Assembly: GCA_013298595.1 (NCBI GenBank)
Contig: JAAFIG010000043.1
Span: 1-36,509, forward strand
Source of the DNA: Deinococcales bacterium
GTDB taxonomy: Bacteria; Deinococcota; Deinococci; Deinococcales; JAAFIG01
Direction: 5' to 3'
DNA: 36,509 bases
Part shown: piece after piece, positions 2 to 36,509 of the stretch
Layout of the letters: the number at the start of each line of letters is the position of its first letter
Numbering within the stretch: the first letter of the stretch is position 1
Position numbers and translations under genes: made by a program
The notes under the pieces: model-generated
The model's database searches: none
Seen by the model: the letters and a program-made list of their open reading frames with translations, nothing else
Told to the model about the DNA's origin: nothing

Positions 2-379
2 GGTATTCGTCGTAAAGATGATGATGTGGTGGTTTCGATGAGCATTGTTCAAGCCGATGATACTGGCGAATTACTTGCCGTTTCGGAAAATGGCTATGGT
101 AAGCGTACCCCAATTTCTGAGTACCCATTGCAAGGACGCGGCGGACAAGGTGTCATCACCTTAAAAGTGACTGACAAAACTGGTAACTTAGTCTCCTTAG
201 ACCGAGTTGGTGGTGATGAAGAACTGATGGTACTGAGTGCCAATGGTGTGGCTATTCGTACCCGAGTCGAAGAAGTCTCGAGTTATGGTCGCAGCAGCCA
301 AGGTGTCAAAGTGATGCGTCTCGAGGATAAAGACTCGGTGATTCGTGCTTTCCCAATTCGTCAAGAAGAATCTTTGTAA
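2..379 (+). CDS. gyrA: DNA gyrase subunit A, C-terminal fragment
   Basis: The frame is open from base 2, so the gene begins outside the window; 125 residues remain. The fragment consists of repeated beta-rich blades of the GyrA C-terminal pinwheel, the domain that wraps DNA and lets gyrase introduce negative supercoils. The GyrA-box-like segment QGRGGQGV lies near residue 38, and further blades read GVITLKVTDKTG and GVAIRTRVEEV. The box favours GyrA over ParC. The protein ends in a short charged tail (RQEESL). The next gene is 281 bases away, and a GC-rich hairpin at 537-552 is the likely end of the transcript. Identity as a type IIA topoisomerase A subunit is secure; GyrA rather than ParC is very likely. 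Confidence 0.9.
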   Translation, partial: GIRRKDDDVVVSMSIVQADDTGELLAVSENGYGKRTPISEYPLQGRGGQGVITLKVTDKTGNLVSLDRVGGDEELMVLSANGVAIRTRVEEVSSYGRSSQGVKVMRLEDKDSVIRAFPIRQEESL

Positions 380-536
380 ATCTGGAAAAGAATTGTTGTC
401 AACACAATTGCATACTTTTTCACAGTAAGCACCATTGTTTTCTCACTCGAACTCGAGCTGAATTCTCATCAAGGCGGACTACCTTAATAAGCGAAGGCTA
501 AGCCAACGGCAAACGCCTCCATACATCCCTCCCCCA

Positions 537-558
537 GCCCCCGAAAGGGGGCGCAATT
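537..558 (+). terminator. GNRA-capped hairpin downstream of gyrA
   Basis: The arms GCCCCC (537-542) and GGGGGC (547-552) pair around a GAAA tetraloop, followed by GCAATTTT. The U-run is short, so this may be a weak terminator or a stabilising REP-type hairpin. The rest of the 380-660 interval holds three CTCGAG sites and the promoter of the next gene. I see no ORF in it. Confidence 0.5.
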
Positions 559-621
559 TTGCCTCGAGACTAAAAAACTTGCACCGTACAAAGGAATGGT
601 TTTCTCATTGCCTTAGCGCGG

Positions 622-655
622 TATACTTTTAAAGCACTACAAATCTCGAGGAGGA
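622..655 (+). promoter_or_regulatory. Promoter -10 and ribosome binding site of the LysM gene
   Basis: TATACT at 622-627 is a good -10 box, but no clear -35 is present. The ten-base string GTATACTTTT recurs upstream of speA at 9687-9696. The Shine-Dalgarno GAGGAGG (about 648-654) overlaps a CTCGAG site at 645-650 and lies a few bases before the ATG at 661. Confidence 0.6.
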
Positions 656-660
656 ATATT

Positions 661-1377
661 ATGTGGCCATTTGGAAAAAGCACAACAGACCGAGTTAAAG
701 AAGAGATGGGTAAATTTGATTTTCTTGCCCAACAAGCAATTACATTCACCGAACGTGGTGGCACAATTTATTGGAATGGTGTTGTTGCTACCGATAAAAT
801 GAAGCGTTTTCTCGAGATTTTTCCAGTAGGGCTTGGTGGTGTTAAAGCCGTAGATACCAGCAATGTTTCGGTGTTACCTGCCGAAGAAGCTACTGCTGCG
901 CAAGTGGAAACCGTTGAAGATAGCACCCTTGATCAAGTCATGGAAGCCAGCAGCTTGGCTAAAAATGTATTTCGTGCCTTTAAAGCCGATGTTGAACTGG
1001 CTGACGACCCAATCGAAGTGCTGCAAAGCGGCGATGGAGTGGTGCTGCGTGGCGCTGTAGATTCACAACACGAATTTAACTTAGCAGTAAAATTAGCCCA
1101 AGAAAACGGTGCTAACCGTGTCATGTCCGACGAATTACAAATTGCCGATGGGGCTAAAGCCAAAGCTGCCGAAGCTGTCAAAGCTGTCGAAGCTGCCAAA
1201 CCAGCTTATGTGAATTTGCCAGACGAATACCACATTGTTAAACCAGGCGAAACACTGACGGCTATCTCGAAGAAATACTTTGGCGATACAGACCATATTG
1301 ATGCCATTGCTAAAGCCAGTGGTATCAGCAACCCAGATTTGATTAAAGTCGGTCAGAAACTACAAATCCCACGATAA
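661..1377 (+). CDS. BON- and LysM-domain protein (Kbp/YgaU-like)
   Basis: 238 residues with no signal peptide. Residues about 20-70 and 85-165 each look like a BON module, a small alpha/beta fold for phospholipid or ion contacts. A short Ala/Lys-rich linker follows (about 168-185). A C-terminal LysM domain starts at YHIVKPGETLTAISKKYFGD and ends in VGQKLQIP, the canonical LysM close. The BON-LysM order is that of E. coli Kbp (YgaU, 149 residues), a cytoplasmic potassium-binding protein. This protein is longer because of the extra N-terminal module. The start is fixed by a strong GAGGAGG. The gene ends 16 bases before a clear terminator at 1394-1427, so it is monocistronic. Domain assignment is firm; a potassium role is inference from the family. 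Confidence 0.8.
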   Translation: MWPFGKSTTDRVKEEMGKFDFLAQQAITFTERGGTIYWNGVVATDKMKRFLEIFPVGLGGVKAVDTSNVSVLPAEEATAAQVETVEDSTLDQVMEASSLAKNVFRAFKADVELADDPIEVLQSGDGVVLRGAVDSQHEFNLAVKLAQENGANRVMSDELQIADGAKAKAAEAVKAVEAAKPAYVNLPDEYHIVKPGETLTAISKKYFGDTDHIDAIAKASGISNPDLIKVGQKLQIPR

Positions 1378-1393
1378 ACCCAACAAACCATTC

Positions 1394-1427
1394 AAGACGA
1401 AGACAACATGCCTTCGTCTTTATTTTT
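1394..1427 (+). terminator. Rho-independent terminator of the LysM gene
   Basis: AAGACGAAG (1394-1402) pairs perfectly with CTTCGTCTT (1412-1420) around a nine-base loop, followed by TATTTTT. The ATG at 1408 lies in the loop, which argues against using it as the start of the next gene. Confidence 0.85.
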
Positions 1428-1431
1428 GGAT

Positions 1432-1443
1432 TACAATGCCATC
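1432..1443 (+). promoter_or_regulatory. Leaderless promoter of plsY
   Basis: TACAAT at 1432-1437 is followed by exactly six bases and then ATG at 1444. This is the TANNNT-N6-start arrangement seen at a dozen other genes in the window. No Shine-Dalgarno is present. Confidence 0.7.
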
Positions 1444-2037
1444 ATGGAATTTTTTGCTCGAGGGCTGGCAGTCATAAGTTGCTATTTGATCGCTGCTATC
1501 AGCATTTCGGTGTTGTACTCCAAATCTCGAGGGCAGGATATTCGCACTTCAGATTTTGCTGGAGCCAGTGGCATGGTACGGCAATATGGTTGGAAAGTTG
1601 GTGTTAGCATTGCTGTGGCTGACATCTTAAAAGGTGTACTTGCCAGTTTACCAATTCTTTTTTTTGCCCCTGAGTGGCTGTGGTTAGCGCCAGCAGTCGC
1701 AGCTTTAGGGCATTGCTATCCGATTTGGCATGGCTGGGTTGGCGGGCAGGGAATAGCCCCTGCAACAGGTGCAATTTATGGGGTGGATATTTTTACAGGA
1801 GCAGTGGTCATGACTTGTGGGCTTGGCTTGATGGTTTTGCACCGTGCCTTGAAATTAAAACCCTATGTCAAACTGGGCAGTGTACCATTTGCAGGTGTTT
1901 TAACCCTACTGATACTGCTTGTGGTTGCCTACTCGAGGTTTGGAACAGCAGGAGTGGGCGGCACTGGCTTATTGATACTGGTCATGGGTGTACGTGGCTT
2001 ACAGGTGCTACGCTCGCCACCACCAGGCTCGAGTTAA
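1444..2037 (+). CDS. plsY: Glycerol-3-phosphate acyltransferase, divergent PlsY
   Basis: 197 residues with about five hydrophobic segments: a polytopic membrane protein that acylates glycerol 3-phosphate from acyl-phosphate, the first step of phospholipid synthesis. PlsY signatures seen are a degenerate motif 1 (FAGASGMVR where the family has SGNPGATN), then YGWKVGV and ADILKG, and motif 2 as LGHCYPIWHGWVGGQGIA (family GH-FP-F-GGKG). The Lys of GGKG is Gln here. I start at 1444 rather than the upstream ATG at 1408, because 1408 sits in a terminator loop and 1444 has a perfectly placed leaderless -10. The stop TAA overlaps the stop of the convergent asparaginase. Family is fairly sure. Activity is less certain given the altered motif 1 and GGQG; a paralogue with a changed substrate is possible. 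Confidence 0.72.
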   Translation: MEFFARGLAVISCYLIAAISISVLYSKSRGQDIRTSDFAGASGMVRQYGWKVGVSIAVADILKGVLASLPILFFAPEWLWLAPAVAALGHCYPIWHGWVGGQGIAPATGAIYGVDIFTGAVVMTCGLGLMVLHRALKLKPYVKLGSVPFAGVLTLLILLVVAYSRFGTAGVGGTGLLILVMGVRGLQVLRSPPPGSS

Positions 2038-3020
2038 TGCCAAGTCAGGTCAAAAGCGGCTCGGATTTCACCAACCTCGAGACCCGCATGATTTTTGGTT
2101 ATCGAAGTTTGTAAAGGCTTGAGGGCATTGGGGTCTGACAACACGCCTAATTGCTCGAGAATACTGATAATAGCAATGTCTCGAGCGCGTTCAGTACCAT
2201 CTTCGATTTTCATGGCAATACCTATGTTGCCATGGCTCGAGTGACGCACAGCTACGCCAACATAGGCTTCAGCACCAATTTTTGAGATGAGGTTAGCTTG
2301 GGTGCTGATAAGCACCGTATCTGCTCGCCCAGTGCCTGCGATCAGGTGCGGATGCTCTCGCATGGCATCAAAGGCTTGCTCGAGACCAAGTGCCAATTCT
2401 GGTTGCCGAGAAGGTTCAGCCAATTTTGCCATACCAAGCGCAGCTTTCTCGAGTGGTACACGAAAACACGGCACACTGCAACCATCTAGGGCAACACCGA
2501 TGTCAGAAACTTCAAAACATTTTTGGATAATCTCGAGAATTTCTATTTGTAATGGGTGATTTGGTAAATGATAACCTTGGGTCGGTAAACCCTTGGCTAA
2601 ACAAGCTGCCAACATACCAGCATGTTTACCACTGCAATTATTTTGCAGTACCGTTGGTTTAATACCAATCACTCGCATTTCACGCCGCGTGGTTTCATCA
2701 AATGGGCTATGAATGCCGCATTTCAACCAACTCGAGTCCACCCCACTCATTTGCAATAACTCGAGTACCGTTTCAACATGAGTAGCATCACCTGCATGGG
2801 AAGCCATAGCGATGGCTAAATGCCGATTGTTTAAACCCAAAGCCCCCAAATGTGGAATTAGTGGTTGTACCTGAAAGGCCTTAGCGCTAGAACGCAGAAA
2901 ACTGGCAAATTGTGGATTGCCAGTGCTTGCCAGTAAACGCCCACCACTCGAGACCACCGCTGAGTGCACCAAATGCCGAGACTCGAGCAACCCACCGCGA
3001 AGCACATGAACATACGCCAT
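2034..3020 (-). CDS. Asparaginase (bacterial asparaginase II, ReAII-like family)
   Basis: 328 residues, cytoplasmic, predicted to hydrolyse L-asparagine to aspartate and ammonia. The family is the Ser/Lys-dependent one typified by Rhizobium etli AnsA, not the E. coli AnsB fold. The key segments are visible: FLRSSAKAFQ near residue 42 (catalytic Ser-x-x-Lys), MASHAGD, NNCSGKHAGM near residue 127, DGCSVPCFRVPL and GTGRADT. The length is normal for the family. The start at 3020 is supported by a leaderless -10 six bases upstream. The 3' end overlaps plsY by four bases (shared TTAA), so the two genes converge with no terminator between them. The family is confident; substrate preference is inferred. 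Confidence 0.85.
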   Translation of the reverse strand: MAYVHVLRGGLLESRHLVHSAVVSSGGRLLASTGNPQFASFLRSSAKAFQVQPLIPHLGALGLNNRHLAIAMASHAGDATHVETVLELLQMSGVDSSWLKCGIHSPFDETTRREMRVIGIKPTVLQNNCSGKHAGMLAACLAKGLPTQGYHLPNHPLQIEILEIIQKCFEVSDIGVALDGCSVPCFRVPLEKAALGMAKLAEPSRQPELALGLEQAFDAMREHPHLIAGTGRADTVLISTQANLISKIGAEAYVGVAVRHSSHGNIGIAMKIEDGTERARDIAIISILEQLGVLSDPNALKPLQTSITKNHAGLEVGEIRAAFDLTWH

Positions 3021-3032
3021 ATGTGCAGTTTA
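3021..3032 (-). promoter_or_regulatory. Leaderless promoter of the asparaginase gene
   Basis: On the minus strand TAAACT (3027-3032) is followed by six bases and the ATG ending at 3020. The -10 is the centre of a small inverted repeat, CAGTT-A-AACTG. There is no Shine-Dalgarno. Confidence 0.7.
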
Positions 3033-3055
3033 ACTGATTAAGACTGCCTTACTAT

Positions 3056-3895
3056 CTATTTGATATAAACACCTACCCCAAAAGCAATTTTGCGTTTAGG
3101 GTGAATTAGAACCTTGCCTTTCCATGCCATGCCAACGCTTGATCCGCCATCAAGGGCTATGGCATCTCGAGCGCCTAAAGCTTTCATGATTCTTGCTAGT
3201 TCTCGCAAGGATAGGCGTTCTCGAGTGCTGGCGAGAATAATTTTTTTATTGTTGATAATTCCTATGGCACTGCGAGCAGCTCGAGACCAAATGGCTTTAT
3301 CGCCATACCCTTCGGCTTTTGGTACTGGGTTAATCAGTCCGTTACGAATCAGAATTGGTCCTGTGCCAATCAGGGTGCGTAATTGCCTAGGCGAGACATT
3401 GCTGTCTTTTGTCCAAAGTTTAGCTTCGTTATTGAAAGTAATAGCTAAACCGCTACGTAAACGACCTTTGTTAATCCATTTGCCTTGTTCGACTAAATCT
3501 CCAACTGGGCTGAAGGTTTGCGGATGAAAATACCCACCATTGAGTAATGCCACAGCGCTCGAGCCTGAGACGAGGGTGTCAAATTTTGCACCTTTTCTAA
3601 AAACATTTTTTGGCAGTACTGCACCAATTTTGACTTGTGGATTCTCGAGGTTCACCCGAATGAGTTTCATGGAAACGCCCAGCACTTTTTTGGACTCGAG
3701 CCGAATACTATTGTTGCTTGGTGCAGCGGGTTTTGGTCTTGGAGCATCGTAGATCAGGGGAATATCTGGTGCCTCTAAAGGTTCGGGAGCTGGAGTAATA
3801 GGGAGTGGTTGCCACTGACTTGGGTCTATGGTTTGTGAAAAGGAGGAAGAAGCGAATAAGGCAATACAAAGCGTAATCGCTTGGACTCGTGACAT
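3056..3895 (-). CDS. Secreted phosphodiester glycosidase family protein
   Basis: 279 residues from the chosen start. The N-terminus MSRVQAITLCIALFASSSFSQ is a Sec signal peptide with a likely cut after FSQ or SFS. A Pro-rich stretch follows (residues about 25-60), then the NAGPA/phosphodiester glycosidase domain. Its hallmarks are VALLNGGYFH, TGPILIRNG, RSAIGI and the C-terminal GARDAIALDGGSSVGM. The family includes the enzyme that uncovers mannose 6-phosphate; bacterial members are periplasmic or cell-wall proteins, often linked to exopolysaccharide. An in-frame ATG eight codons upstream was rejected because this ATG starts the signal peptide and has TACAAT exactly six bases before it. The gene diverges from the GGDEF-EAL gene across 56 bases. 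The family is confident; the substrate is unknown. Confidence 0.8.
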   Translation of the reverse strand: MSRVQAITLCIALFASSSFSQTIDPSQWQPLPITPAPEPLEAPDIPLIYDAPRPKPAAPSNNSIRLESKKVLGVSMKLIRVNLENPQVKIGAVLPKNVFRKGAKFDTLVSGSSAVALLNGGYFHPQTFSPVGDLVEQGKWINKGRLRSGLAITFNNEAKLWTKDSNVSPRQLRTLIGTGPILIRNGLINPVPKAEGYGDKAIWSRAARSAIGIINNKKIILASTRERLSLRELARIMKALGARDAIALDGGSSVGMAWKGKVLIHPKRKIAFGVGVYIK

Positions 3896-3907
3896 ATCTT
3901 CATTGTA
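3896..3907 (-). promoter_or_regulatory. Leaderless promoter of the glycosidase gene
   Basis: Minus-strand TACAAT (3902-3907) plus six bases (GAAGAT) leads directly to the ATG ending at 3895. It faces the plus-strand leaderless promoter at 3940, making a compact divergent pair. Confidence 0.65.
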
Positions 3908-3935
3908 CGCTATGAACACAAAAATTCAATCTTTC

Positions 3936-3951
3936 ACAGTAAACTGTTTTT
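3936..3951 (+). promoter_or_regulatory. Leaderless promoter of the GGDEF-EAL gene with inverted repeat
   Basis: TAAACT (3940-3945) and six bases precede the ATG at 3952. It is embedded in the inverted repeat ACAGT-AA-ACTGT (3936-3947). There is no Shine-Dalgarno upstream. Confidence 0.65.
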
Positions 3952-5580
3952 ATGTCCGTAGATATCCAACATCTTGCATTTCAAAATGCACCTCTTGGCA
4001 TGGCGGTTTTTTCGGTGGATGGTGTGCTACTTACCTCTAACGAAATGCTGGATTCTTGGTTACAGCAGCCAATTGTCGAGTTTCAAGCATTTATCCATCC
4101 CAGTGACCGTCGGGCGTTTCGGGAGTTATTGGTGCAACTTTCTGAAGGTGAAACAGGTTTTTTAGAATGCCGATTACTATTAGCTCAAGAGCGTTGGACT
4201 CGAGTGCATGCGTCTTGGTTTGATGGGCGTATTGTTTGTTTATTTGAAGATATCACGCGTCAAAAGCAATCGCAGGTTGAACTCGATTACCTTTTTTACT
4301 TTGATGCTTTAACCAAATTACCGAATCGTGCCATGCTCGAGCGGCAAATTGATGTCATGCTTTCCAGTGTGCGTCGCCGTGATGATGGGATGGCATTGTT
4401 GTTAATTGATTTAGATCGGTTTAAGTTAATTAATGATACGTATGGATTTGCCTTTGGCGATGATTTTTTAGTCGCTGTGGCAGCCCGTTTAAATGCGGCA
4501 TTGCGAATCACTGATTTGCTGGTTCGTATGGGTGGCGATGAATTTGCCATATTGGTACTCGGTTCTGCCGAAGATGCTCGAGTGGTTGGGCGACGCGTAC
4601 TTGAAGCGTTTGCTGAAGCATTTGTCATTAAAGAACAAGAAGTGGTGAGTAGTGCTTGTGTTGGAGTGGCTTTATTTCCGCAGGATGCCTCGGATGCGAC
4701 AAGCTTGCAAGCCCATGCCGATATTGCCATGTTTAATGCTAAGGAAGCAGGGCGTGGCAGAATGCGTTTTTATGGCGCTTTGGGGCAACATGCTGAACGT
4801 GAACAACTCGAGATTGAAGCCGAGTTACTGCATTGTATTGAGCGTCAAGAATTGGTGGTGATGTACCAGCCGCAGTACGATATCCGCGATCATCATTTGA
4901 TTGGTTTTGAAGCATTAACTTACTGGCAGCATCCTAAGCGGGGCTTGTTATCGCCTGGTAAATTTATTGCTCTTGCTGAACAAACAGGGTTTATTACGAC
5001 AATTGGCAATTGGGTTTTAGAAAAAGCGGCTTGGCAAATGCAGCAATGGAATGCAGCCCTTCAAAACCCATTACAAATTGCAGTGAATCTAAGTGCTACG
5101 CAACTCGAGCGGACTGGTTTTGTGGCTGTGGTCGCAGGGATTCTCGAGCGGACAGGGTTACAGGCGGGTCAATTAGAACTCGAGATTACTGAATCGCAAA
5201 TTATGAGTAAAGAATTCGAGCCTGAACAGCAATTACATGCTCTGGCAGCGCTTGGTGTGCATTTGGCAATTGATGATTTTGGTACAGGTTACAGCAACCT
5301 TGGGCGTTTACTGGGTTTGCCTTTAACCACTTTAAAAATAGATCGTTTATTTGTGATGGATTTATTGTCTGATCCGAGTAACCCAAAAAGCACTGCGCCT
5401 TTGGTTCGGTCTATTGTGCAATTAGCCCATAATTTAAAATTAACGGTTTTAGCCGAAGGAGTCGAAACCCAAGCTCAACTCGAGCGATTAAATTTTTTGG
5501 GTTGCGATTTTGCTCAAGGATTTTATTTTGCTCAACCACTCAGTTGTGCAGAAGCAGAAAAATTGGTCTTCCCAACTTAA
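3952..5580 (+). CDS. PAS-GGDEF-EAL cyclic-di-GMP turnover protein
   Basis: 542 residues, cytoplasmic, no membrane segment. The N-terminal 110 residues look like a PAS sensor (FQNAPLGMAVFSVDGVLL through CLFEDITRQKQ). A GGDEF domain follows with DALTKLPNR, an intact RMGGDEF (near residue 190), and an RxxD inhibitory site (RITD) five residues before it. The EAL domain then has FEALTYW, NLSATQL, LEITES, DDFGTGYSNL, LKIDR, AEGVET and QGFYFAQPL, that is, all metal and c-di-GMP ligands. Both halves appear catalytically competent, so net direction cannot be read from sequence. The stop overlaps the stop of the convergent gene (TTAA, 5577-5580). Family and domains are secure; the signal sensed is unknown. 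Confidence 0.92.
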   Translation: MSVDIQHLAFQNAPLGMAVFSVDGVLLTSNEMLDSWLQQPIVEFQAFIHPSDRRAFRELLVQLSEGETGFLECRLLLAQERWTRVHASWFDGRIVCLFEDITRQKQSQVELDYLFYFDALTKLPNRAMLERQIDVMLSSVRRRDDGMALLLIDLDRFKLINDTYGFAFGDDFLVAVAARLNAALRITDLLVRMGGDEFAILVLGSAEDARVVGRRVLEAFAEAFVIKEQEVVSSACVGVALFPQDASDATSLQAHADIAMFNAKEAGRGRMRFYGALGQHAEREQLEIEAELLHCIERQELVVMYQPQYDIRDHHLIGFEALTYWQHPKRGLLSPGKFIALAEQTGFITTIGNWVLEKAAWQMQQWNAALQNPLQIAVNLSATQLERTGFVAVVAGILERTGLQAGQLELEITESQIMSKEFEPEQQLHALAALGVHLAIDDFGTGYSNLGRLLGLPLTTLKIDRLFVMDLLSDPSNPKSTAPLVRSIVQLAHNLKLTVLAEGVETQAQLERLNFLGCDFAQGFYFAQPLSCAEAEKLVFPT

Positions 5581-6404
5581 CCAACTCGGTCTTGGAAGGC
5601 TTTAAGCACCGCAGGGGCAAAGGTATCGCCTAGCCATGCCTCGAGTTCGGCTTGTAATTTCTTTGGATCTGTTATTTTTAGCATGGTTTTATTTGCCTCA
5701 AGCACAGCTTTGCTGTTGACTCCGATATGCTCGAGTAAAATAGTTTCAACACTTTGGCGTATATGCTGGCAGCGTCCAAAAGTGTCTTTGTTGGCTTCGG
5801 CAGATACCAAATGCAGAATATCTTCTGGAGCTTCCCGAGGCATGGTCACTAAATGCAGTTTGCCCGCTTCAAAACGGTTAGGAAAGTTTAAACTCAGTTG
5901 CGATTGTCCCCCACGAAAAAACCAAGCTTGCCCTGTGCGGCTTTGCTCGAGTACAACGGCACCACTGAATAAATTATCGCGTAAGGAACCAAGCATGGTA
6001 CTGGGAATAATCTGGTGTGATTCGTAAGTTTGGATTTTACTGGCTACGGTTAAAGCAGCAATACAGGGAATGGCTTCTTTGGCTAAGGCATAGATTTCGA
6101 CTTCGGCAAAATCCAGTAAAGGTTGCAAATTACGGTATGCTTCAGCACGATTCTCAAAACCACCCAATCCTTGCCGCCACGCCTCGAGAATCCGACCTTG
6201 GAAAAATAATAAACCACCTAACCATTCAGCCTCGAGTTTGACATGCACGAACCCCGAGAAACCCGTGGTCTCGAGATGATGCAGCATCCGAGCATCAAAT
6301 TGCGTTCCAGGCATGGTCTGACCCATTTCCTTTTGTGGTAAAAACTCGAGAATGCAGCCCAATGTGGGTTGCGACACAGTGTCTATAATTCCTCGTCCGA
6401 ACAT
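5577..6404 (-). CDS. Uncharacterised protein, DUF4388-like N-terminal segment
   Basis: 275 residues with no signal peptide or membrane span. I do not recognise the family firmly. The N-terminal half has alternating beta segments with GFVHVKLEAEWLGGLLFFQGRILEAW (residues about 45-75), which resembles the DUF4388 pattern of 'effector' domains in Deinococcus-Thermus regulators. A second similar element, LFSGAVVLEQSRTGQAWFFRGGQ, begins near residue 145, so the protein may be an internal duplication of that fold. The last third is helical and charged. The start at 6404 is supported by minus-strand TAAGCT exactly six bases upstream. It converges with the c-di-GMP gene, sharing the stop TTAA. Function is unknown. 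Confidence 0.6.
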   Translation of the reverse strand: MFGRGIIDTVSQPTLGCILEFLPQKEMGQTMPGTQFDARMLHHLETTGFSGFVHVKLEAEWLGGLLFFQGRILEAWRQGLGGFENRAEAYRNLQPLLDFAEVEIYALAKEAIPCIAALTVASKIQTYESHQIIPSTMLGSLRDNLFSGAVVLEQSRTGQAWFFRGGQSQLSLNFPNRFEAGKLHLVTMPREAPEDILHLVSAEANKDTFGRCQHIRQSVETILLEHIGVNSKAVLEANKTMLKITDPKKLQAELEAWLGDTFAPAVLKAFQDRVG

Positions 6405-6416
6405 GCTAAGAGCTTA
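6405..6416 (-). promoter_or_regulatory. Leaderless promoter (5577-6404 gene)
   Basis: Minus-strand TAAGCT (6411-6416), six bases (CTTAGC), then the ATG ending at 6404. There is no Shine-Dalgarno. The 116-base divergent interval to the next gene holds no ORF. Confidence 0.6.
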
Positions 6417-6513
6417 ACAGAATTACGCAGTGCACATGCAAAAAACCACGCTTAAATGTGATTTTTTTAATGTTCTAGGCAATATGTCGCTGTTCAAGCT
6501 GTTCATAGGTTGC

Positions 6514-6547
6514 TAGACTAATGGGGCGCATCACGCGCTGGAGATCA
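6514..6547 (+). promoter_or_regulatory. Promoter and start region of the radical SAM gene
   Basis: TAGACT at 6514-6519 is a plausible -10 box. Transcription would then begin near 6526, inside any gene started at the ATG at 6521. GGAG (6540-6543) lies four bases before ATG 6548, which supports the downstream start. Confidence 0.5.
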
Positions 6548-8080: not shown

Positions 8081-8099
8081 AAAAAACAGTACAAACCAC

Positions 8100-8111
8100 T
8101 AGCCTTAAAGG
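8100..8111 (+). promoter_or_regulatory. Possible leaderless promoter of sufU
   Basis: TAGCCT (8100-8105) plus six bases precedes ATG 8112. The AAAGG in the spacer could instead be a badly spaced Shine-Dalgarno, so this is the weakest member of the class. Confidence 0.4.
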
Positions 8112-8528
8112 ATGTCAGCCCTTCTCGAGCAGATGTACAAAGAGATTTTACTCGACCATCAACGCAATCCGCGCAACCACGGCAAACTCGAGCCTGCAAC
8201 CCGAACAGAATTTGGACATAACCCAAGTTGCGGCGATCAACTCGAGATCAATCTGCTGCTCGAGCAAGATTGTATTACTGCGATTCGTTTTACGGGTCGT
8301 GGTTGTACCATCTCTCAAGCCAGTGCCAGCTTGATGACCAATGCCATTCAAGGAAAAAGCAAAAGTGAAGCCTTGGGTATCGCCCAAGCATTCACGCAGA
8401 TGCTGCGAACAGGGGAGAGCAACTCCAGCCTAGGCGATTTAAATGCTTTGATTGGCGTGGCAAAACTACACGCTCGAGTCAAATGTGCATTGCTGGCATG
8501 GCAGACACTCGAACTTGCTTTAGGGTGA
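8112..8528 (+). CDS. sufU: SUF system Fe-S assembly protein SufU
   Basis: 138 residues. The N-terminus MSALLEQMYKEILLDHQRNPRNHGKL is the SufU/IscU-type opening. Three cysteines sit at the expected places: NPSCGDQL (with the adjacent Asp), GRGCTISQAS and RVKCALLAWQTL. In Gram-positive and Deinococcus-type SUF systems SufU binds zinc and takes sulfur from the cysteine desulfurase SufS. The family insertion between the second and third cysteines is present though short. No sufS, sufB or sufC is adjacent, so the gene is detached from any suf cluster in this window. It lies just after a radical SAM gene, a client of Fe-S assembly. Confidence 0.88.
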   Translation: MSALLEQMYKEILLDHQRNPRNHGKLEPATRTEFGHNPSCGDQLEINLLLEQDCITAIRFTGRGCTISQASASLMTNAIQGKSKSEALGIAQAFTQMLRTGESNSSLGDLNALIGVAKLHARVKCALLAWQTLELALG

Positions 8529-8548
8529 AGGTCACGAACCTCGAGTCG

Positions 8549-8560
8549 TAAGATAAAATA
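8549..8560 (+). promoter_or_regulatory. Leaderless promoter of SHOCT gene 1
   Basis: TAAGAT (8549-8554) plus AAAATA precedes ATG 8561. The upstream flank CTCGAGTCG is shared with the promoter of the paralogue at 9095. Confidence 0.65.
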
Positions 8561-9061: not shown

Positions 9062-9094
9062 AATAAAGTTGGAACTCAAATCAAGCTCGAGTCG

Positions 9095-9105
9095 TATTAT
9101 TAGGT
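9095..9105 (+). promoter_or_regulatory. Leaderless-type promoter of SHOCT gene 2
   Basis: TATTAT (9095-9100) lies five bases before ATG 9106, in the same CTCGAGTCG context as the promoter of paralogue 1. It suggests that the promoter was duplicated with the gene. Confidence 0.5.
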
Positions 9106-9591: not shown

Positions 9592-9687
9592 ATTTATCTT
9601 CTCGAGTGAAAAATTACGTTCTAAAACCCCTATGAACCATTGTCTGACTCGAGGGACAAGCTGACATAACAATCACACTTTTTTCTG

Positions 9688-9734
9688 TATACTTTTGCAG
9701 TTGCCGTGTTGTCTTGGCAGATGTCTTTTGGAGG
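9688..9734 (+). promoter_or_regulatory. Promoter -10 and ribosome binding site of speA
   Basis: TATACT at 9688-9693 lies within GTATACTTTT, as upstream of the LysM gene. CTGACA at 9661-9666 is -35-like, but the spacer of 21 is too long. GGAGG (9730-9734) is eight bases before TTG 9743 and decides that start over the upstream TTG at 9695. Confidence 0.6.
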
Positions 9735-9742
9735 ACACAACA

Positions 9743-22693: not shown

Positions 22694-22700
22694 TGTTACG

Positions 22701-26412: not shown

Positions 26413-26417
26413 TTTAC

Positions 26418-29165: not shown

Positions 29166-29325
29166 ATATCGTTGTGATAATTCTGTAAGCATTTACTGCA
29201 ATACTCGAGCTAATCATCCTTTAGGACGAAGACAAGAATCGCAATCTGCTTCAGAATCAAGGTGTGAAAATAAGTTCATCAAGCCCTCATTCAATTGGTC
29301 AAAATACAGCACGGAGTAAACATTC

Positions 29326-30984
29326 ATGAAACAATTTTTGTTATCAGCCATCGCCATCTCGAGTCTAGGAGCCGCTAACGCTCAAAGTTTAGCCAAATAC
29401 GCCCCAAGTAACGCCATTGCTGCCATCGAACTTAACGATATTGCAGGCGCACAAAAACAAAGTGCAGCTCTGGTTAAACAATTAGCAGGTCTTAATTTAG
29501 GGGCTGTCATTGCCGAAGCCACAGGCTCAAACAAACAAGAACAAAAAGACCTCGAGAATATGCTTTCCGATTTTGGAGCACTGGTGAACCGCGAAGGACT
29601 GGTTTCCTTGTACCTCAGCCCGAAAAGTGGACAAGTTGGTTTTTTACTCGCAGCCAGACCAGCCAGTAACGCCGATGCAAAAATGCAAAAATGGATGCGA
29701 GACAGCGCCAGAAACATGGAAGCTCGAGGCACAAAAATCCTAGGATTCCCAGTCTATCAAAGCAGTTTTATCAACTTTGGTTATATGGGAGGTTTAGCCT
29801 ATGCCGCTTCTGATACTGCCACCCTCAACGAATTCCTCAGCCGATTCCGCAACCAAGGCAACTTTTCAAAACCAAGCTTAGCTGGTAGCACCAGCTACGA
29901 CGAAGTCATGAAACAAACAGGCGAAGGCAATATGCGTCTCTACTTTGACTTACGCAATGCCAGCCAACTGGCTCGAGGCATTATAGATATGGTTGACCCA
30001 GAAATTCCAGGAATCAAACTCGAGCCAATCCTCGATGCCCTCACCACTTACGGACGTTTTGGTGGATCATGGCGCATCACCCCAGAAGGTATTGATAACA
30101 CGATTATCACCGTGCCAGAATCTCGAGGAGTAGACACCCAATTCGCTCGTTTATTAACCCCCAAAGACCCAATTAACTTACGAGCCGCCAGCATCGTCCC
30201 AGCCAGCGCTGTTGGTTTTAGTACCAGTAGCAATAACCCAGTGCTTTTTTACAACTGGATCTCGAGTATGCTCGACCGCACAGGTGCCAACCCAGGTGGT
30301 TTAGACGCGTTCTTCAAAGGCGAATTTGGGATTGATGCCCAAAAAAGCATTCTTAACTGGATGACAGGCGAAATTGCCAGTGCCACTTTTGTTGGCAAAG
30401 GCGCAACCCAAAGCCTAGGCGAAAGCGTCACCTACCTTGGCACCAAAGACGAAAAAGCCACCACCGAAATGATCGAAAAAGTGCTCCCAAAACTGATCGA
30501 AATTGGACAGAAACTTGCTCAACAAAAAGCCAATAGTAAATTTACCAAAGCCAAAATTGGTAACACTGATATCTACCGCTTTGTCATTACCGAAAACTTC
30601 CCAATTATCCTTGCAATCAAAGATGGCTTTTTAATGGTTGCAACCTCCGATACAGGCATCACCACAGCCCTATCGAGCGGTGCAAAACTCGAGACCAGCA
30701 CCAATTACAAAACCGCAACAGCTCGAGTACCAAAAGATGCGCTAGGCTGGAGTTACGGCGACACCACCGCTAGCTTAAAAAGTGCCGCTGAGGGCGCAGG
30801 ACAAATCCTCGAGTTAGCCCTTAGCTTAGGCTTAGATCTCAAACCAAGCACCAGCAAGAAACTGGTCAATGGCATCACAGGGTTATTAACTGCTCTGAGT
30901 GAACGTGCAGGTTCAGCAGTATCATGGACAGAAGCTGTACCAGCAGGTACCAAAACACGTAGTTTTCAACCAGTTAAATGGTGA
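29326..30984 (+). CDS. Secreted DUF3352-domain protein
   Basis: 552 residues. The signal peptide MKQFLLSAIAISSLGAANAQ is followed by DUF3352 landmarks: LAKYAPSNAIAAIELND at the N-terminus, FLLAARPASN, TKILGFPVYQS, and GAKLETSTNYKTATARVPKDALGWSYGD toward the C-terminus. The protein is largely alpha/beta with no further membrane span, so it is periplasmic or envelope bound. The function of the family is unknown. GGAG (29313-29316) is nine bases before ATG. Codons use more C-ending triplets than neighbours, which may indicate high expression. The gene ends at a strong bidirectional terminator shared with leuB. The 160 bases upstream hold one CTCGAG and no clear promoter. Confidence 0.78.
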   Translation: MKQFLLSAIAISSLGAANAQSLAKYAPSNAIAAIELNDIAGAQKQSAALVKQLAGLNLGAVIAEATGSNKQEQKDLENMLSDFGALVNREGLVSLYLSPKSGQVGFLLAARPASNADAKMQKWMRDSARNMEARGTKILGFPVYQSSFINFGYMGGLAYAASDTATLNEFLSRFRNQGNFSKPSLAGSTSYDEVMKQTGEGNMRLYFDLRNASQLARGIIDMVDPEIPGIKLEPILDALTTYGRFGGSWRITPEGIDNTIITVPESRGVDTQFARLLTPKDPINLRAASIVPASAVGFSTSSNNPVLFYNWISSMLDRTGANPGGLDAFFKGEFGIDAQKSILNWMTGEIASATFVGKGATQSLGESVTYLGTKDEKATTEMIEKVLPKLIEIGQKLAQQKANSKFTKAKIGNTDIYRFVITENFPIILAIKDGFLMVATSDTGITTALSSGAKLETSTNYKTATARVPKDALGWSYGDTTASLKSAAEGAGQILELALSLGLDLKPSTSKKLVNGITGLLTALSERAGSAVSWTEAVPAGTKTRSFQPVKW

Positions 30985-31001
30985 TTTCTAAAAAATAAAA
31001 A

Positions 31002-31026
31002 GGGGCGGCTCAGCCGCCCCTTTTTT
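31002..31026. terminator. Bidirectional Rho-independent terminator
   Basis: GGGGCGGC (31002-31009) pairs with GCCGCCCC (31013-31020), flanked by AAAAA before and TTTTTT after. It separates the convergent DUF3352 and leuB genes. Confidence 0.92.
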
Positions 31027-31041
31027 ATTGCTCTGCAAAAT

Positions 31042-32076
31042 TCACAATAATTGTAAAACAGCAGCCGTAAAATCACTCGAGCCAGACGTACCACCTAAAT
31101 CTCTGGTTGGATGACTAAACAAGGCTTGACGAACAGCTTCTTCGATTTTCCGAGCAATCTCTGGGCGCTTAAAACTGTACTCGAGCATCATTGCAGCACT
31201 GAGAATTGTCGCAGCGGGATTGGCGATTCCTTGCCCTGCAATATCAGGTGCAGAACCATGAATCGGTTCGTACAAACCAATCTTATCGCCTAGGCTGGCG
31301 CTGGGTAGCAAGCCAAGGCTGCCAGGCAAAACACTGGCAAGGTCGGATAAAATGTCGCCAAATAAATTTTCGGTTAAAATCACATCGTAACGCTTAGGAT
31401 TTTTCACCAAAATCATCGCACAAGAATCCACATACTCATGCGTCAGCTCGACATCTGGGAATTCGGTTTGTTGCACATGTACCACAATGCGCCGCCAGAA
31501 TTCCGAAACCTCGAGTACATTGGCTTTATCTACGCTACAAACTCGGTTCTGCCGACCCCTTGCTGCTTGAAACGCCCAACGAGCAGCACGTTTCACTTCC
31601 TCGGTTGTGTACCGAATGGTGTTAAAGCCACCACCTTCCTCGAGACCACGCGGTTCACCGAAGTACGCACCACCAAGTAACTCACGTAAAATTAGAATAT
31701 CCACACCACCTGCAACTTCGGGTTTTAATGGTGAAAGATGCTCGAGACCAGCGTACACTTTACTAGGACGCAAATTGGCATAGACACCAAGTGCTTTACG
31801 CAGCTTTAACAACCCAGATTCAGGGCGGAGTTCCCTAGCAATGTTATCGGTGCTACCAGGTAGCCCACCTACCGAACCCATCAGCACCGCATCAGAAGCC
31901 AATGCCGCCTCGAGAACTTCGTCACCCAAGGGTTTACCGTACTTTTGGGTACCTGCTAAACCAAAGGCAAATTCGGAATACTCGAGATCAGGAGCAACTT
32001 TATTCAGCACTTGAATAGCACTCGAGATAACCTCAGGACCAACACCATCACCGGGAAGAACAACGACTTTTGGCAT
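31042..32076 (-). CDS. leuB: 3-isopropylmalate dehydrogenase
   Basis: 344 residues, normal length. It oxidises and decarboxylates 3-isopropylmalate with NAD in leucine synthesis. Seen motifs are [60 protein letters not shown] (catalytic Lys), [15 protein letters not shown] (metal Asp) and [15 protein letters not shown]. The LILREL segment and the SVGGLPG loop are typical of LeuB over isocitrate dehydrogenase. A GAAGGG Shine-Dalgarno is about nine bases before the ATG. The leuD end lies 4 kb away, so the leucine genes are split. A 16-bp palindrome sits in the likely promoter spacer. Confidence 0.93.
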
Positions 32077-32099
32077 AATAAATAACCCTTCTGAAATAA

Positions 32100-32127
32100 A
32101 TTCTATTTACCATGGTAAATTTTTTAA
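32100..32127 (-). promoter_or_regulatory. leuB promoter with 16-bp palindromic operator candidate
   Basis: ATTTACCATGGTAAAT (32105-32120) is a perfect palindrome. On the minus strand it falls between a -35-like TTAAAA and a -10-like TAGAAT (32100-32105), 16 bases apart, a position suited to a repressor. The remaining bases up to 32284 are AT-rich without an ORF or CTCGAG. Confidence 0.5.
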
Positions 32128-32284
32128 TAGAACTGTGGATCTATTTCCAATTTTAAAGATGAAAATCGATTGCATATCTGACCATTGAGAAGACGTTTCT
32201 AGGCAAATAATGAACAGCTATAATGATATTATAAATTGTGCATTTTGCTCCAAGTAACTTAAATTTAGGCTATTTTATTTGAAA

Positions 32285-34033
32285 CTATTTGATTTCAAAT
32301 TCGGTAATTCGATTATCATTACTAACATATAAAAAATTTCCGAAAAATCCTCTTTGAATTTCTACATTTCCGAAAATGTTATATGAATTTCTATCTTCAA
32401 ATAAAAACGGCTTCTCCATTTTTGGAACGTAGTTCGATAACCGCCGTAAAGTTTCGATTTCTCGTACTCTATTCTTCTCATATAGGTTATAATAGGATTT
32501 TTCAAGATCATCAACTATATTCCTTCTGACAATAAAGTCTACTTGGTTTCCATTTATATCAAATTTGTATGCAAAACGACTACTAAATATCCAGTAATAG
32601 TGATTTCCTTGAAACAAAATAGGGTTTTTTCTTATATTTTTACCAAGATATTTATTTAAATTTTTTAATTTTGTTGTATCTCTAAAATAAAAAAAACCAA
32701 ATCTCTTTTGATTTTGTAAATTATAGAAACTTATTATATGAAATCGGTCATCGTCTCTTTTTATGATAAAACTTACAGCAAGAGATCTTCTATTATACGG
32801 TAAAAAAAATGATTCTAGTTCAAGATTATATTCTTTCAATTTGCTTGGAAAAATAAAATTTCTCAACGCAAGTAGCTGACCATCTTTCTTATTGAGAAAT
32901 CTGATTACAAGGCTTTCACCTTTTTTGAATTGCTCAAAGCTTGGCGAAAGTAAATATTCGGCAGATCTATTTGTGATACTTTTCCAGTCATAAACTTCGG
33001 CTAGTAAAACACAAAGAAAAAAGGATAAAGTCAACGCTCTCGTTAATACCCATCTCCAATTCAAAGTAGGTTTCTTTATGCGATTACTCTTATCTTTAGG
33101 TCCAACGCTTTGAACCATGAAAGTCCTCATAGTATTCACATCTATGAAACGATTCTTAACTCTCATCTCGAGCGCTTTCTCGAAAACATCTGATAATTCC
33201 TTCGAGAACTTTTGTAAGGCTAACATATTTGGCTCAATGCTTGCGCCATTCGCCCGCTCAAGTGCATTTGGTACTCGAATACCAGTTATGGCTTCGCAAA
33301 AAGTTGCAGCTAAAGCATATAAATCTGTGGCTGGAGTCAATTCGACTTCACCACCAAATTGCTCGAGAGGTGCGTACTCTAGCGTGACTATGCGGTTACT
33401 AACTTTAATCCGTTCACCATTTTTAAATTCGGTTAAGCTCCCGAAATCAATTAATTCCACTCGAGACGGTGTAAAAATGATATTGGCAGGTTTGATGTCT
33501 CGGTGCAAAAAACCATGACCGTGCAATTCTTCTAGTACTTCGAGAATGGTGAGTAACGCACTTTTGGCTTCGGTTTCGGTTAATAATTTTCCTGTTTGAA
33601 TGCGTTGCTCGAGGGTCTCACCAGCTAAGTATTCCATTGCCATGTATGTTGTGTTATTTTCTTCCCAGTAAGCAAAGAGTTTAGTGGCACTTGGGTGCTT
33701 GAGGTTGCGTAACATTTTCGCTTCACGGTTGGTCCGAGCAATAGCAGATTGCATTCCGGATTGATGAATAGAGATTACTTGTGTATTGTAGCCTCGAGTC
33801 GCTAGACCTTCTGGAAAAAGTTCTTTGACTGCAAGGCGTTTTTGATGCTGAAGATGGACTACTTCATAAACAATACCAAAACCACCTCGACCAATCACTT
33901 GAATAATCTTGAGGGTATTGCTAAACAGTCTTGTGCCATTTGGTAGCACATCTGCACTAAGACTTGAGCCACAGGAAGCGCATAATGTGGCAGTGCCTTG
34001 ATTTTCAGTTTGGCAATATAGACAAGTTAGCAT
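32285..34033 (-). CDS. Zinc-ribbon Ser/Thr protein kinase with transmembrane span
   Basis: 582 residues from the chosen start; an upstream in-frame ATG at 34117 is possible. The N-terminus is a zinc ribbon (C4-C7 and C18-C21). A kinase domain of Hanks type follows: GRGGFGIVYEV (about 48-58), AVKELF, EYLAGETLEQRI, HRDIKPANIIF, LIDFGSLTEF (DFG), and APLEQF in place of APE. A membrane segment near residues 325-345 (ALTLSFFLCVLLAEVYDW) places about 230 C-terminal residues outside. That part is Lys/Phe/Tyr/Asn-rich, matches no family I know, and is encoded in AT-rich DNA lacking CTCGAG, while the kinase half has five sites. The tail may be acquired or fast-evolving. No partner phosphatase is adjacent. 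Confidence 0.85.
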   Translation of the reverse strand: MLTCLYCQTENQGTATLCASCGSSLSADVLPNGTRLFSNTLKIIQVIGRGGFGIVYEVVHLQHQKRLAVKELFPEGLATRGYNTQVISIHQSGMQSAIARTNREAKMLRNLKHPSATKLFAYWEENNTTYMAMEYLAGETLEQRIQTGKLLTETEAKSALLTILEVLEELHGHGFLHRDIKPANIIFTPSRVELIDFGSLTEFKNGERIKVSNRIVTLEYAPLEQFGGEVELTPATDLYALAATFCEAITGIRVPNALERANGASIEPNMLALQKFSKELSDVFEKALEMRVKNRFIDVNTMRTFMVQSVGPKDKSNRIKKPTLNWRWVLTRALTLSFFLCVLLAEVYDWKSITNRSAEYLLSPSFEQFKKGESLVIRFLNKKDGQLLALRNFIFPSKLKEYNLELESFFLPYNRRSLAVSFIIKRDDDRFHIISFYNLQNQKRFGFFYFRDTTKLKNLNKYLGKNIRKNPILFQGNHYYWIFSSRFAYKFDINGNQVDFIVRRNIVDDLEKSYYNLYEKNRVREIETLRRLSNYVPKMEKPFLFEDRNSYNIFGNVEIQRGFFGNFLYVSNDNRITEFEIK

Positions 34034-34212
34034 ATGGTTGTTACGAGACAAGCATCTATTTCGTTCCTTTTGTATTCTATCGTTTCTCAAGCTTAACAAC
34101 CAGCAGCATAGGTTCATGATTCTTAAACGAATGATTGTTTTTCATATTATTTGAGGCGAATTTCTATTCGGGCAATTTCTATAAACTGGTTAGTTATGAA
34201 GCCAAAGGTATC

Positions 34213-34728
34213 TCACGGATCGAGAATTTTTGATACCGTTTCCTCAATCGTTAAACCACTCGAGTCAATCACAATCCATCCCTCTTGATCCATATTTGTG
34301 TATTCATTATGCAAGTACCGAATGGCAGGTTCCAAACCTTTGGGGTCAAAATTCTTATTGGTTCGGCTCGAGCTTCGTTGTAATGCAACTTCAAGATTGG
34401 GAAGTAAAAGTATTCTTTTGAATTCGGCTCTCTCGAGGTGTGGAGCGTAGTCGGTTTCAAAATCCTTGGTCGAAAAAACATCATCTATAGCAACAGTAAA
34501 ACCAGCCCTCGAGTAGTTTGTAGCCATTTGTACAGCATTTTCTCGAGCTAATGCAAATTGCCGAGTGGTTTCATCTGTCCATGTTGGCACTGGATGAGCA
34601 ATGCCAGACACCACCATTTCTCGTAAATCATCTACAGGCACGTGTACACCTTTGGCAAAGCGTTGCATTAAAGCTTTACAAACACTACTTTTACCCGACG
34701 CTGGCGTACCCGAAATCAGATAAATCAT
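34213..34728 (-). CDS. P-loop kinase/AAA_33-like ATPase
   Basis: 171 residues. The N-terminus MIYLISGTPASGKSSVCKAL is a Walker A motif at residue 7. The AIDDVFS segment and FKRILLLPNLEVALQRSSSR give the lid and Arg-rich part typical of AAA_33/zeta-toxin-like kinases that phosphorylate small molecules or tRNA termini. Substrate unknown. It overlaps orf70 by four bases (ATGA), so it is translationally coupled as the last gene of the tam operon. The 179 bases to the kinase start upstream are AT-rich with short imperfect repeats (ATTTCTAT) and no ORF. Confidence 0.75.
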   Translation of the reverse strand: MIYLISGTPASGKSSVCKALMQRFAKGVHVPVDDLREMVVSGIAHPVPTWTDETTRQFALARENAVQMATNYSRAGFTVAIDDVFSTKDFETDYAPHLERAEFKRILLLPNLEVALQRSSSRTNKNFDPKGLEPAIRYLHNEYTNMDQEGWIVIDSSGLTIEETVSKILDP

Positions 34729-34937
34729 GTTGCGCGTTTCCTCTCGAGTGTTGCCATAAAATCATTGTAAACACTTGAATCAAACATATTGGGATTTGTT
34801 TCAATAAAAGCCCAAGCATCTTCGATAGTGACAAACTCGAGTTTATTACTTTCCCACTCGAGCCGCACGCGGCTTTGAGCTGTGATGAACAGTTTCAAAG
34901 CATTTGTCTCGAGAATTAAGCGATCTTGTTTTATCAT
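34725..34937 (-). CDS. 70-residue unknown protein coupled to tam and the P-loop kinase
   Basis: Starts MIKQDRLILETNALKLFITAQ, with a probable beta hairpin then helix (LEFVTIEDAWAFIETNPNMF) and a charged end LERKRAT. No family is recognised; the size and the DAWAFIETN segment recall antitoxin-like or accessory proteins but this is a guess. ATG overlaps the tam stop by four bases (ATGA), and its stop overlaps the kinase start in the same way, so all three are one coupled unit. The segment carries four CTCGAG sites in 213 bases. Confidence 0.6.
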   Translation of the reverse strand: MIKQDRLILETNALKLFITAQSRVRLEWESNKLEFVTIEDAWAFIETNPNMFDSSVYNDFMATLERKRAT

Positions 34938-35698
34938 AAGTACGCAATCATAAATAAGCGATTAAACTCGAACAGTACCCGACCATCTTTTTGCATCGGG
35001 TAGTCTACGCGTACTTGCTCGAGTAGCAGCGCTTCAAATTGAATTCGGGCATCATCGTCTGGCAAAGCCTCGAGAAACGGACGCAAACCCGTACCCCGAA
35101 TCCACTCGAGAATCGCTTCTGCATTTGGCATGACATGCTGATACGCGGTTTGCCATAACTCAATTTTGTTGGCTGGTAGCAGCGCATCATAATAAAATTG
35201 CGGAGTCTCGAGCGATAATGCTGTACTCGCTTTGGATAATTCATCAACCCATTGAGGGTTTTTGGCAATCTCGAGCATGGCTTGGTGCAAATACGAACGT
35301 TGATGGGCAGGAATTTGAATGGCTAAAGCACCACCCGCTGCCACCAGATTCTTGAGTTTAGGTAACAGGTCTGCGTGATTCTTGACCCACTGAATAGCGG
35401 CATTGGAAAACACCAAATCAAACTTTGTTTCGGACTGAAAAGTTGCCATATCTGCCTCGAGCCAATGCCAATCAGGATGCGCTTTTCGTGCTTGTGCGAG
35501 CATGGCACTCGAGGAATCTAAACCAGTTAAGTCCGTATTCGCCCAGCGCCGAGCCAGAATTTCGGTACTATTGCCAGGACCACAACCCAAATCAACAATA
35601 GATTTTGGCTCGAGTTGAATTCTCGTGACCAAATCTATCGCTGGCTGTGTGCGTTCATTGGTAAATTGCAGGTACAAATTGGCATCCCAAGTTGGCAT
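34934..35698 (-). CDS. tam: Trans-aconitate 2-methyltransferase-like protein
   Basis: 254 residues from ATG 35698 (E. coli Tam is 252). A class I SAM-dependent methyltransferase: SIVDLGCGPGNSTEIL (motif I), DLTGLDSSSAMLAQAR, DLVFSNAAIQWVKNH, GGALAIQIPA, with the WDANLYLQF opening and the RGTGLRPFLEALP region characteristic of Tam, which methylates the aconitate isomer that inhibits aconitase. The upstream in-frame start at 35767 would overlap the preceding gene; GGAG lies seven bases before 35698 and the Tam-like N-terminus begins there. First gene of a three-gene coupled unit. Confidence 0.82.
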   Translation of the reverse strand: MPTWDANLYLQFTNERTQPAIDLVTRIQLEPKSIVDLGCGPGNSTEILARRWANTDLTGLDSSSAMLAQARKAHPDWHWLEADMATFQSETKFDLVFSNAAIQWVKNHADLLPKLKNLVAAGGALAIQIPAHQRSYLHQAMLEIAKNPQWVDELSKASTALSLETPQFYYDALLPANKIELWQTAYQHVMPNAEAILEWIRGTGLRPFLEALPDDDARIQFEALLLEQVRVDYPMQKDGRVLFEFNRLFMIAYL

Positions 35699-35699
35699 G

Positions 35700-36155
35700 T
35701 TAAACTCCGAATTGGCGCAAATGATGGTCACAGTGTAAGTACGCCCATCGTTGCCATTCTTCTGCACTTAAATTTCCAAACAGCGAGTGTTTCACAAATT
35801 TTACTTCGTTGGCACTGACTCGCCGTATCCACTCGAGCAATACAGCTTTGTCTGCTGCAAATTCTTTGGGTGTTGTACCTTGTTTTTCTTGGTCGTTTTC
35901 TTTGGCTGTCGGCGCTCCTTTTGCCCAAGCCAGCCCTGAATAAAGCGCCAACCATTTCAGCAACGGTTTTAGAAAATTTGGCATCGGTGGTGGAGTAATG
36001 ACACGATTGCCTGATACTGAGTTAAAAGCATCAATCAGATGACAAATTGCTTGGTGTGAGTTCATTTTGCCCCACTGCCTTGGAGAATTTGGTTCAAGAG
36101 CAGCGAGGCGGGTTTGAATTTCAAGAACATCTGTTGATTGCGAAAAAGATTTCAT
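35700..36155 (-). CDS. DUF1569 protein
   Basis: 151 residues from ATG 36155. DUF1569 (DinB-like four-helix fold) features: LAALEPNSPRQWGKMNSHQAICHLIDAFNSVSG at residues about 20-55, with the conserved His, and LSAEEWQRWAYLHCDHHLRQFG at the C-terminus, giving the paired His ligands of a metal-binding bundle. The start is chosen from TACAAT exactly six bases upstream; the longer in-frame ATG at 36200 would overlap leuD. One base separates its stop from the tam start. Role unknown; such proteins are often thiol- or metal-linked hydrolase relatives. Confidence 0.68.
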   Translation of the reverse strand: MKSFSQSTDVLEIQTRLAALEPNSPRQWGKMNSHQAICHLIDAFNSVSGNRVITPPPMPNFLKPLLKWLALYSGLAWAKGAPTAKENDQEKQGTTPKEFAADKAVLLEWIRRVSANEVKFVKHSLFGNLSAEEWQRWAYLHCDHHLRQFGV

Positions 36156-36167
36156 TTCAATATTGTA
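36156..36167 (-). promoter_or_regulatory. Leaderless promoter of the DUF1569 gene
   Basis: Minus-strand TACAAT (36162-36167), six bases (ATTGAA), then the ATG ending at 36155. There is no Shine-Dalgarno. Confidence 0.65.
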
Positions 36168-36196
36168 AAGTGATGTGACTGAAAGTCTTGTTACAC

Positions 36197-36509
36197 TCAA
36201 TACGGCTTTGCTCGAGCTTCAAAAGCACCAATCACATCGGTTTTATTTAGCAAGTACCCAAGGTCATCTACACCATCAAGCAAACACAATTTCCGAAATG
36301 GATCAATACTAAAACCATGACTCGAGCCATCAGGTAACGTGACAGTTTGACTTGGTAAATCCACTTTGATTTGCGAATCAGGAGCTTGCTCAAGCAGATT
36401 CCAAATGCTCGAGACAACATCTTCGGGCAATGCCACAGGCAACAAACCATTTTTTAAACTGTTGTTATGAAAAATATCGGCAAACACAGGCGCGATCACT
36501 GTTTTAAAA
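36197..36509 (-). CDS. leuD: 3-isopropylmalate dehydratase small subunit, C-terminal part
   Basis: The frame is open to the window edge (36509), so the N-terminus is missing; about 104 residues remain. LeuD sequence is clear: VIAPVFADIFHNNSLKNGLLPVALPED, then FSIDPFRKLCLLDGVDDLGYLLNKTDVIGAFEAR, the E. coli-type ending. With LeuC it isomerises 2- to 3-isopropylmalate, the step before leuB, which lies 4 kb downstream on the same strand behind unrelated genes. The GTG at 36497-36499 is internal, not a start. Confidence 0.88.
   Translation of the reverse strand, partial: FKTVIAPVFADIFHNNSLKNGLLPVALPEDVVSSIWNLLEQAPDSQIKVDLPSQTVTLPDGSSHGFSIDPFRKLCLLDGVDDLGYLLNKTDVIGAFEARAKPY

Follow-up and report, generated by a model that had tools for sequence, protein, structure and literature searches.

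Why does one palindromic hexamer, CTCGAG, crowd a stretch of DNA from a Deinococcales bacterium, and what keeps it there? The stretch that was analysed (the window) is the 36,509 nucleotides of contig C38 of genome G000, an assembly of 4,582,226 bases with 94.4% completeness. An original prediction, made from the sequence of the window, had called CTCGAG a highly iterated palindrome of this genome. We compared the window with the rest of the genome and with a set of 111 genomes of the order Deinococcales.

Abundance and distribution of CTCGAG

The window contained 231 exact copies of CTCGAG with a mean spacing of approximately 158 bp (Table 1), in agreement with an earlier hand count of about 230 and with the first and last positions given there. 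Base composition predicts 7.0 copies, a second-order Markov model 15.4, and a third-order model 72.8, the last figure being inflated because CTCGAG itself supplies the tetramers. In a 436-kb sample (L001–L020 plus the window), with the motif masked before fitting, 2,660 copies were found against 36 (second order) and 48 (third order) expected; no model approached the observed number. The whole genome held 27,159 copies (5.9 per kb, or one per approximately 170 bp), about 30 times the base-composition expectation, so that the 25-fold excess first proposed was an understatement. The reversed word, GAGCTC, occurred 15 times in the whole genome.

No other palindrome was enriched to a similar degree. 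In the 436-kb sample, the observed/expected ratio (O/E) of CTCGAG was 31 vs 2.5 for the next palindrome, and the remaining 63 hexamer palindromes were jointly depleted (3,346 observed vs 6,793 expected), which refutes the idea that many unrelated palindromes are similarly dense. Words that differ from CTCGAG at one position were near expectation, except for the transitions, which showed an approximately 2-fold excess, as decay products would. The search for a longer motif around CTCGAG was also negative: there was no flanking extension, and the unit is a bare 6-mer of sharp specificity.

Table 1. CTCGAG copies and selected open reading frames (ORFs) of the window
Feature	Position	Strand	Remarks
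CTCGAG set	277..36413	.	231 exact copies; the feature is the ensemble, no single copy being special
First CTCGAG of the window	277..282	.	Exact match
Last CTCGAG of the window	36408..36413	.	Exact match
ORF, 847 aa	26622..29165	+	24 CTCGAG sites, the maximum among the ORFs of the window
ORF, 655 aa	9695..11662	+	12 CTCGAG sites; 80% nucleotide identity to congener G001
ORF, 736 aa	11737..13947	-	10 CTCGAG sites; 79% nucleotide identity to congener G001, 73–74% to G002/G003

Comparison with related genomes, which had been suggested as a check, revealed the iteration in six full carriers, separately assembled and belonging to several genera. Four of them (G000–G003; 5.9–6.5 per kb) represent three genera of family f1, and two, G012 (6.2 per kb) and G016 (7.7 per kb), belong to genus g11 of the sister family f2; GAGCTC was nearly absent from all six. 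In other genera of f2, the density was 3.6 per kb in G008 (genus g8), which is half-strength, and 0.3 per kb in G004 (genus g4), which lacks the trait. CTCGAG was also enriched approximately 10-fold in samples of G068 (family f5) and G104 (family f3), and therefore a weaker form of the iteration may be older than families f1 and f2. In the samples with weaker iteration (G008, G068, and G104; L229–L237 and L243–L247), the density was 2.4–3.6 per kb, the enrichment approximately 10-fold, and the O/E of the dipeptide Leu-Glu 1.4–2.0. Viral contigs were scanned for CTCGAG-dense phages; among the matches listed, there was no clear virus with such an iterated palindrome, and the densest fragments were GC-rich (0.57–0.71).

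A force on the word that weakens near a neighboring site

Fine-scale statistics were based on 1.23 Mb of G000, with genes called as long ORFs and gene boundaries hence approximate. The density of CTCGAG was the same within and between ORFs (5.79 per kb each), and 19 of the sites in the window were intergenic, consistent with the predicted spread over genes and intergenic DNA. All codon phases were used, as predicted, both in the window (110/56/46) and in the G000 sample (3,477/1,526/1,186). Relative to background codon use, and given the amino acids, the log-odds shifts for the three phases were 4.75, 3.71, and 3.88, and the ln O/E of intergenic CTCGAG was 3.94. Because every phase and the intergenic DNA show similar shifts, codon bias alone is insufficient, as had been argued. 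CTC-GAG encoded 3,483 of the 5,240 Leu-Glu dipeptides (two thirds), where 82–89 (<2%) were expected. Furthermore, Leu-Glu itself was 2.33-fold over expectation in the G000 proteome, with Glu-Leu at 0.98, and its O/E was 2.2–2.5 in all six full carriers vs 1.00 in G004. Therefore, the force changes proteins and is not limited to silent positions. These results show that the 6-bp word itself is under a near-uniform force, with a log-odds push of approximately 4–5 per site, and that this force suffices to double the number of Leu-Glu dipeptides in the proteome.

The spacing of CTCGAG was near random overall (coefficient of variation [CV], 1.01), except at short range. Pairs of sites less than 20 bp apart occurred at 0.34 of expectation and those at 20–40 bp at 0.77, and pair numbers were normal from 60 bp. 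The probability that a Leu-Glu dipeptide is encoded by CTCGAG was 0.20 when a neighboring site lay less than 12 bp away and 0.77 when it lay at 75 bp or more. Expressed as a push S within genes, the force was approximately 5.3 beyond 70 bp and fell smoothly to approximately 2.2 at 6–10 bp from a neighbor; the distance dependence in phases 1 and 2 had the same shape, and 25 control codon pairs showed no dependence on neighbor distance. The within-gene Mantel–Haenszel odds ratio for a neighbor within 30 bp was 0.23 (z = −17.5), or 0.28 (z = −10.5) when only neighbors outside Leu-Glu codons were counted. The push on a CTCGAG site inside genes thus drops when another lies within approximately 60 bp. 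In intergenic DNA, the repulsion was weak (78 pairs at <50 bp vs 90 expected, and 89 vs 110). The short-range deficit recurred in G001, G002, G003, and G012 plus G016, and was absent in the half-strength G008. Hairpin avoidance was rejected as its cause, since ordinary inverted 6-mer pairs fell only to approximately 0.8–0.9 of expectation at 6–20 bp, compared with 0.34 for CTCGAG, and stood at approximately 0.9 at long range; neither general inverted repeats nor other palindromes showed repulsion to the degree of CTCGAG. No helical phasing of the sites was found.

The sites are also conserved in place. In a 64-kb alignment of G000 with its congener G001 (74% nucleotide identity), 247 of 393 G000 sites (63%) were identical in place, compared with 22% for hexamers of equal composition, and CTCGAG ranked first of 157 words. 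Where Leu-Glu was conserved in both genomes and was encoded in G000 by something other than CTCGAG, G001 had CTCGAG in 50 of 80 cases. This pattern is less suggestive of frozen ancestry than of sites turning over about a strongly biased equilibrium. A GC-poor (34–37%) polysaccharide cluster on L190 carried 9 and 3 copies in two 5-kb pieces, the mean being 29. The nearly CTCGAG-free part (L190:10000–20000) contains genes for a UDP-GlcNAc 2-epimerase, a flippase, and a glycosyltransferase. The cluster was probably acquired recently, and its low CTCGAG content fits newly arrived DNA that has yet to gain the word.

Candidate mechanisms

Our preferred explanation, with a probability of roughly 0.4, is that a putative CTCGAG-specific DNA-binding factor reads the word and that sites are selected one by one. 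CTCGAG would then be a chromosome-wide recognition word for a sequence-specific, probably dimeric factor, and the occupancy of each site would add a small fitness benefit, for example in chromosome organization or repair. Close neighbors would be redundant or mutually exclusive, and foreign DNA would enter without the word and gain copies over time. The sharp 6-bp specificity, together with the near-expected frequency of one-off words, fits a single recognition site. The equal coding and intergenic densities, the similar shifts in all contexts, the conservation in place, the repulsion, and the Leu-Glu excess of the full carriers also favor this reading, whereas the weak repulsion in intergenic DNA, its absence in G008, and the otherwise near-random spacing without helical phasing count against it. 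The factor is one that we infer, because no reader protein was identified among the XhoI-family nucleases, methyltransferases, and Vsr enzymes that were searched for. Biased repair or conversion could yield the same equilibrium without any benefit. More tentative still is the full proposition that the Deinococcales harbor a CTCGAG-reading chromosomal system other than a methyltransferase, with sites individually maintained and mutually exclusive below approximately 60 bp, and with Leu-Glu approximately doubled.

A repair bias of the type proposed by Elhai is the foremost alternative, and we consider it rather unlikely. A methyltransferase would mark CTCGAG, methyl-directed mismatch repair would keep mutations that create the word, and copies would accumulate without being useful. 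This would suit a force that, like a drive, acts even where amino acids change, and the model predicts a lower gain near an existing site, which is the same in kind as the observed repulsion; however, the scale of approximately 60 bp is far below the approximately 1 kb that the model invokes. CTCGAG methyltransferases of the m6A, m4C, and m5C types exist in other organisms, and the highly iterated palindromes (HIPs) described in cyanobacteria occur together with a methyltransferase that can act on them (PMC4390886). Nevertheless, searches with five methyltransferase families (PF01555, PF00145, PF02384, PF07669, and PF02086) revealed no enzyme common to all full carriers, whose genomes were 91–94% complete, so that methylation, one of the causes originally listed, gained no support from these families. 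The methyltransferases of G000 and G001 and those of G002 and G003 were mostly different. Since the genomes are incomplete and three G000 enzymes have no assigned specificity, a cognate methyltransferase may yet exist.

The best methyltransferase candidate was a C5 enzyme encoded on contig C15 of G000, because it has close orthologues in carriers and no adjoining nuclease. These orthologues were found in G001, G012, and G105 only. Its relatives elsewhere are paired with MspI-type nucleases, and others with HNH or weakly BsaWI-like ones; the MspI-type pairing makes CCGG or a CCGG-containing sequence the likely target. CCGG was scarce in G000, as it was at the loci of G001 and G012. Judged by these sequence comparisons, the enzyme is probably CCGG-specific, and it was rejected as the cause of the iteration on account of its relatives' MspI-type partners and the patchy occurrence of its orthologues.

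Compared with site-by-site selection through a binding factor, a drive by DNA uptake appears improbable. Competent cells would favor CTCGAG-bearing fragments and recombination would spread the word, as for the uptake sequences of Neisseria (DUS) and Haemophilus (USS). Drive or selection causes uptake sequences to accumulate, and those of Neisseria have a spacing that matches the length of conversion fragments (PMC2397512), and the recently acquired-looking DNA described above lacks CTCGAG. However, with sites already 170 bp apart on average, a further one would add little to uptake unless the fragments were approximately 100 bp long. Uptake sequences are moreover 9–12 bp long, non-palindromic, and biased to non-coding DNA, whereas CTCGAG has the same density within genes as between them; those of Neisseria often form close inverted pairs, whereas close pairs of CTCGAG are depleted.

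Correction by Vsr-like very-short-patch repair, in which T:G mismatches in a CTTGAG or TTCGAG context would be converted to CTCGAG, is very improbable. Such a word-specific correction would act everywhere, genic and intergenic alike, but the precursors CTTGAG and TTCGAG were approximately 2-fold enriched, not depleted. Among the 13 genomes searched for Vsr (PF03852), only G008 had it, and none of the six full carriers did. Vsr itself is thus largely refuted as the cause, and this form of the repair bias named in the original prediction has become unlikely.

It is harder still to credit restriction and modification by a resident system of the XhoI type. XhoI recognizes CTCGAG, and nucleases of its family occur in the order, but the family (PF04555) was absent in G000–G003, G008, G012, and G016, and G018, G042, and G048, which possess such a nuclease, had only approximately 0.7–1.0 CTCGAG per kb; restriction, furthermore, normally leads to avoidance, as for many other palindromes in G000. 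In G009 (L124–L125), a genome without full iteration, an XhoI-family nuclease gene is interrupted by stop codons. Finally, chance, codon usage, and assembly artefact were rejected: Leu-Glu encoded by CTC-GAG accounts for half of the CTCGAG sites, but phases 1 and 2 and the intergenic DNA hold the remainder at similar enrichment, masked Markov models predict <2% of the observed number, and separately assembled genomes from several genera agree.

Relation to known iterated words and other observations

By class, the CTCGAG feature is a highly iterated palindrome, and the parallel originally drawn with cyanobacterial HIP1 was apt. HIP1 is GCGATCGC, and alternate HIPs are known, such as GGCGCC of Calothrix PCC 7103; non-degenerate HIPs have densities of 0.5–2.5 per kb, a typical range and not a strict criterion (Elhai 2015, PMC4390886). 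Like these, CTCGAG is a short GC-rich palindrome that is the top over-represented word by a wide margin, lies in genes and between them, is patchy among relatives, and is accompanied by the avoidance of many other palindromes; a Pseudanabaena sample likewise had one enriched and many avoided palindromes. Unlike them, it is a new word in another phylum, has a density of 5.9 vs 0.5–2.5 per kb, yielded no cognate methyltransferase in the five families searched, and measurably changes the proteome. The repulsion below approximately 60 bp was not seen for CGATCG in the Pseudanabaena sample, which was small and of low power.

Like DUS and USS, CTCGAG is a short word with copies in the thousands, maintained by selection or drive and conserved in place. 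In contrast to them, it is a palindromic 6-mer, is several times denser, has no preference for non-coding DNA, and is depleted in close pairs, whereas pairs of DUS or USS form terminators. XhoI/PaeR7I-type restriction-modification systems have the same 6-bp word and sharp specificity, but their nuclease family was not found in the carriers, where the site is hugely enriched and not avoided. In accordance with the statement in the original prediction that no description of CTCGAG iteration was known, a literature search of limited subscription-journal coverage, by which novelty is not proven, gave no report of it or of HIPs outside the cyanobacteria.

What cyanobacterial HIP1 is for has lacked an explanation since the 1990s. 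CTCGAG adds another case, of higher density and from a different phylum, in which carrier and non-carrier genera stand side by side and rival causes can be separated. Its spacing rule and proteome effect are quantitative constraints on any mechanism. Furthermore, a 6-bp word that alters proteins bears on analyses of codon usage and protein evolution in these lineages.

Several other words and enzymes stood out. In the 436-kb sample, GGCC occurred 13 times vs 1,123 expected, CCGG 104 vs 1,123, and GAGCTC once vs 85, and TTCGAA, CTTAAG, CCGCGG, GGGCCC, and CGGCCG had 0 copies each. The top enriched hexamer without overlap with CTCGAG was TGGTTT/AAACCA, at 4.8-fold over composition. One C5 methyltransferase family (L130, L145, L135, L129, and L140), spread over different phyla, had MspI-type, HNH, or weakly BsaWI-like nuclease partners, a case of partner exchange. 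On contig C34 of G000 (L027:1399–3242), a PF01555 methyltransferase gene adjoins an ORF that matches the NotI-family nuclease, and the two are likely to form a restriction-modification pair.
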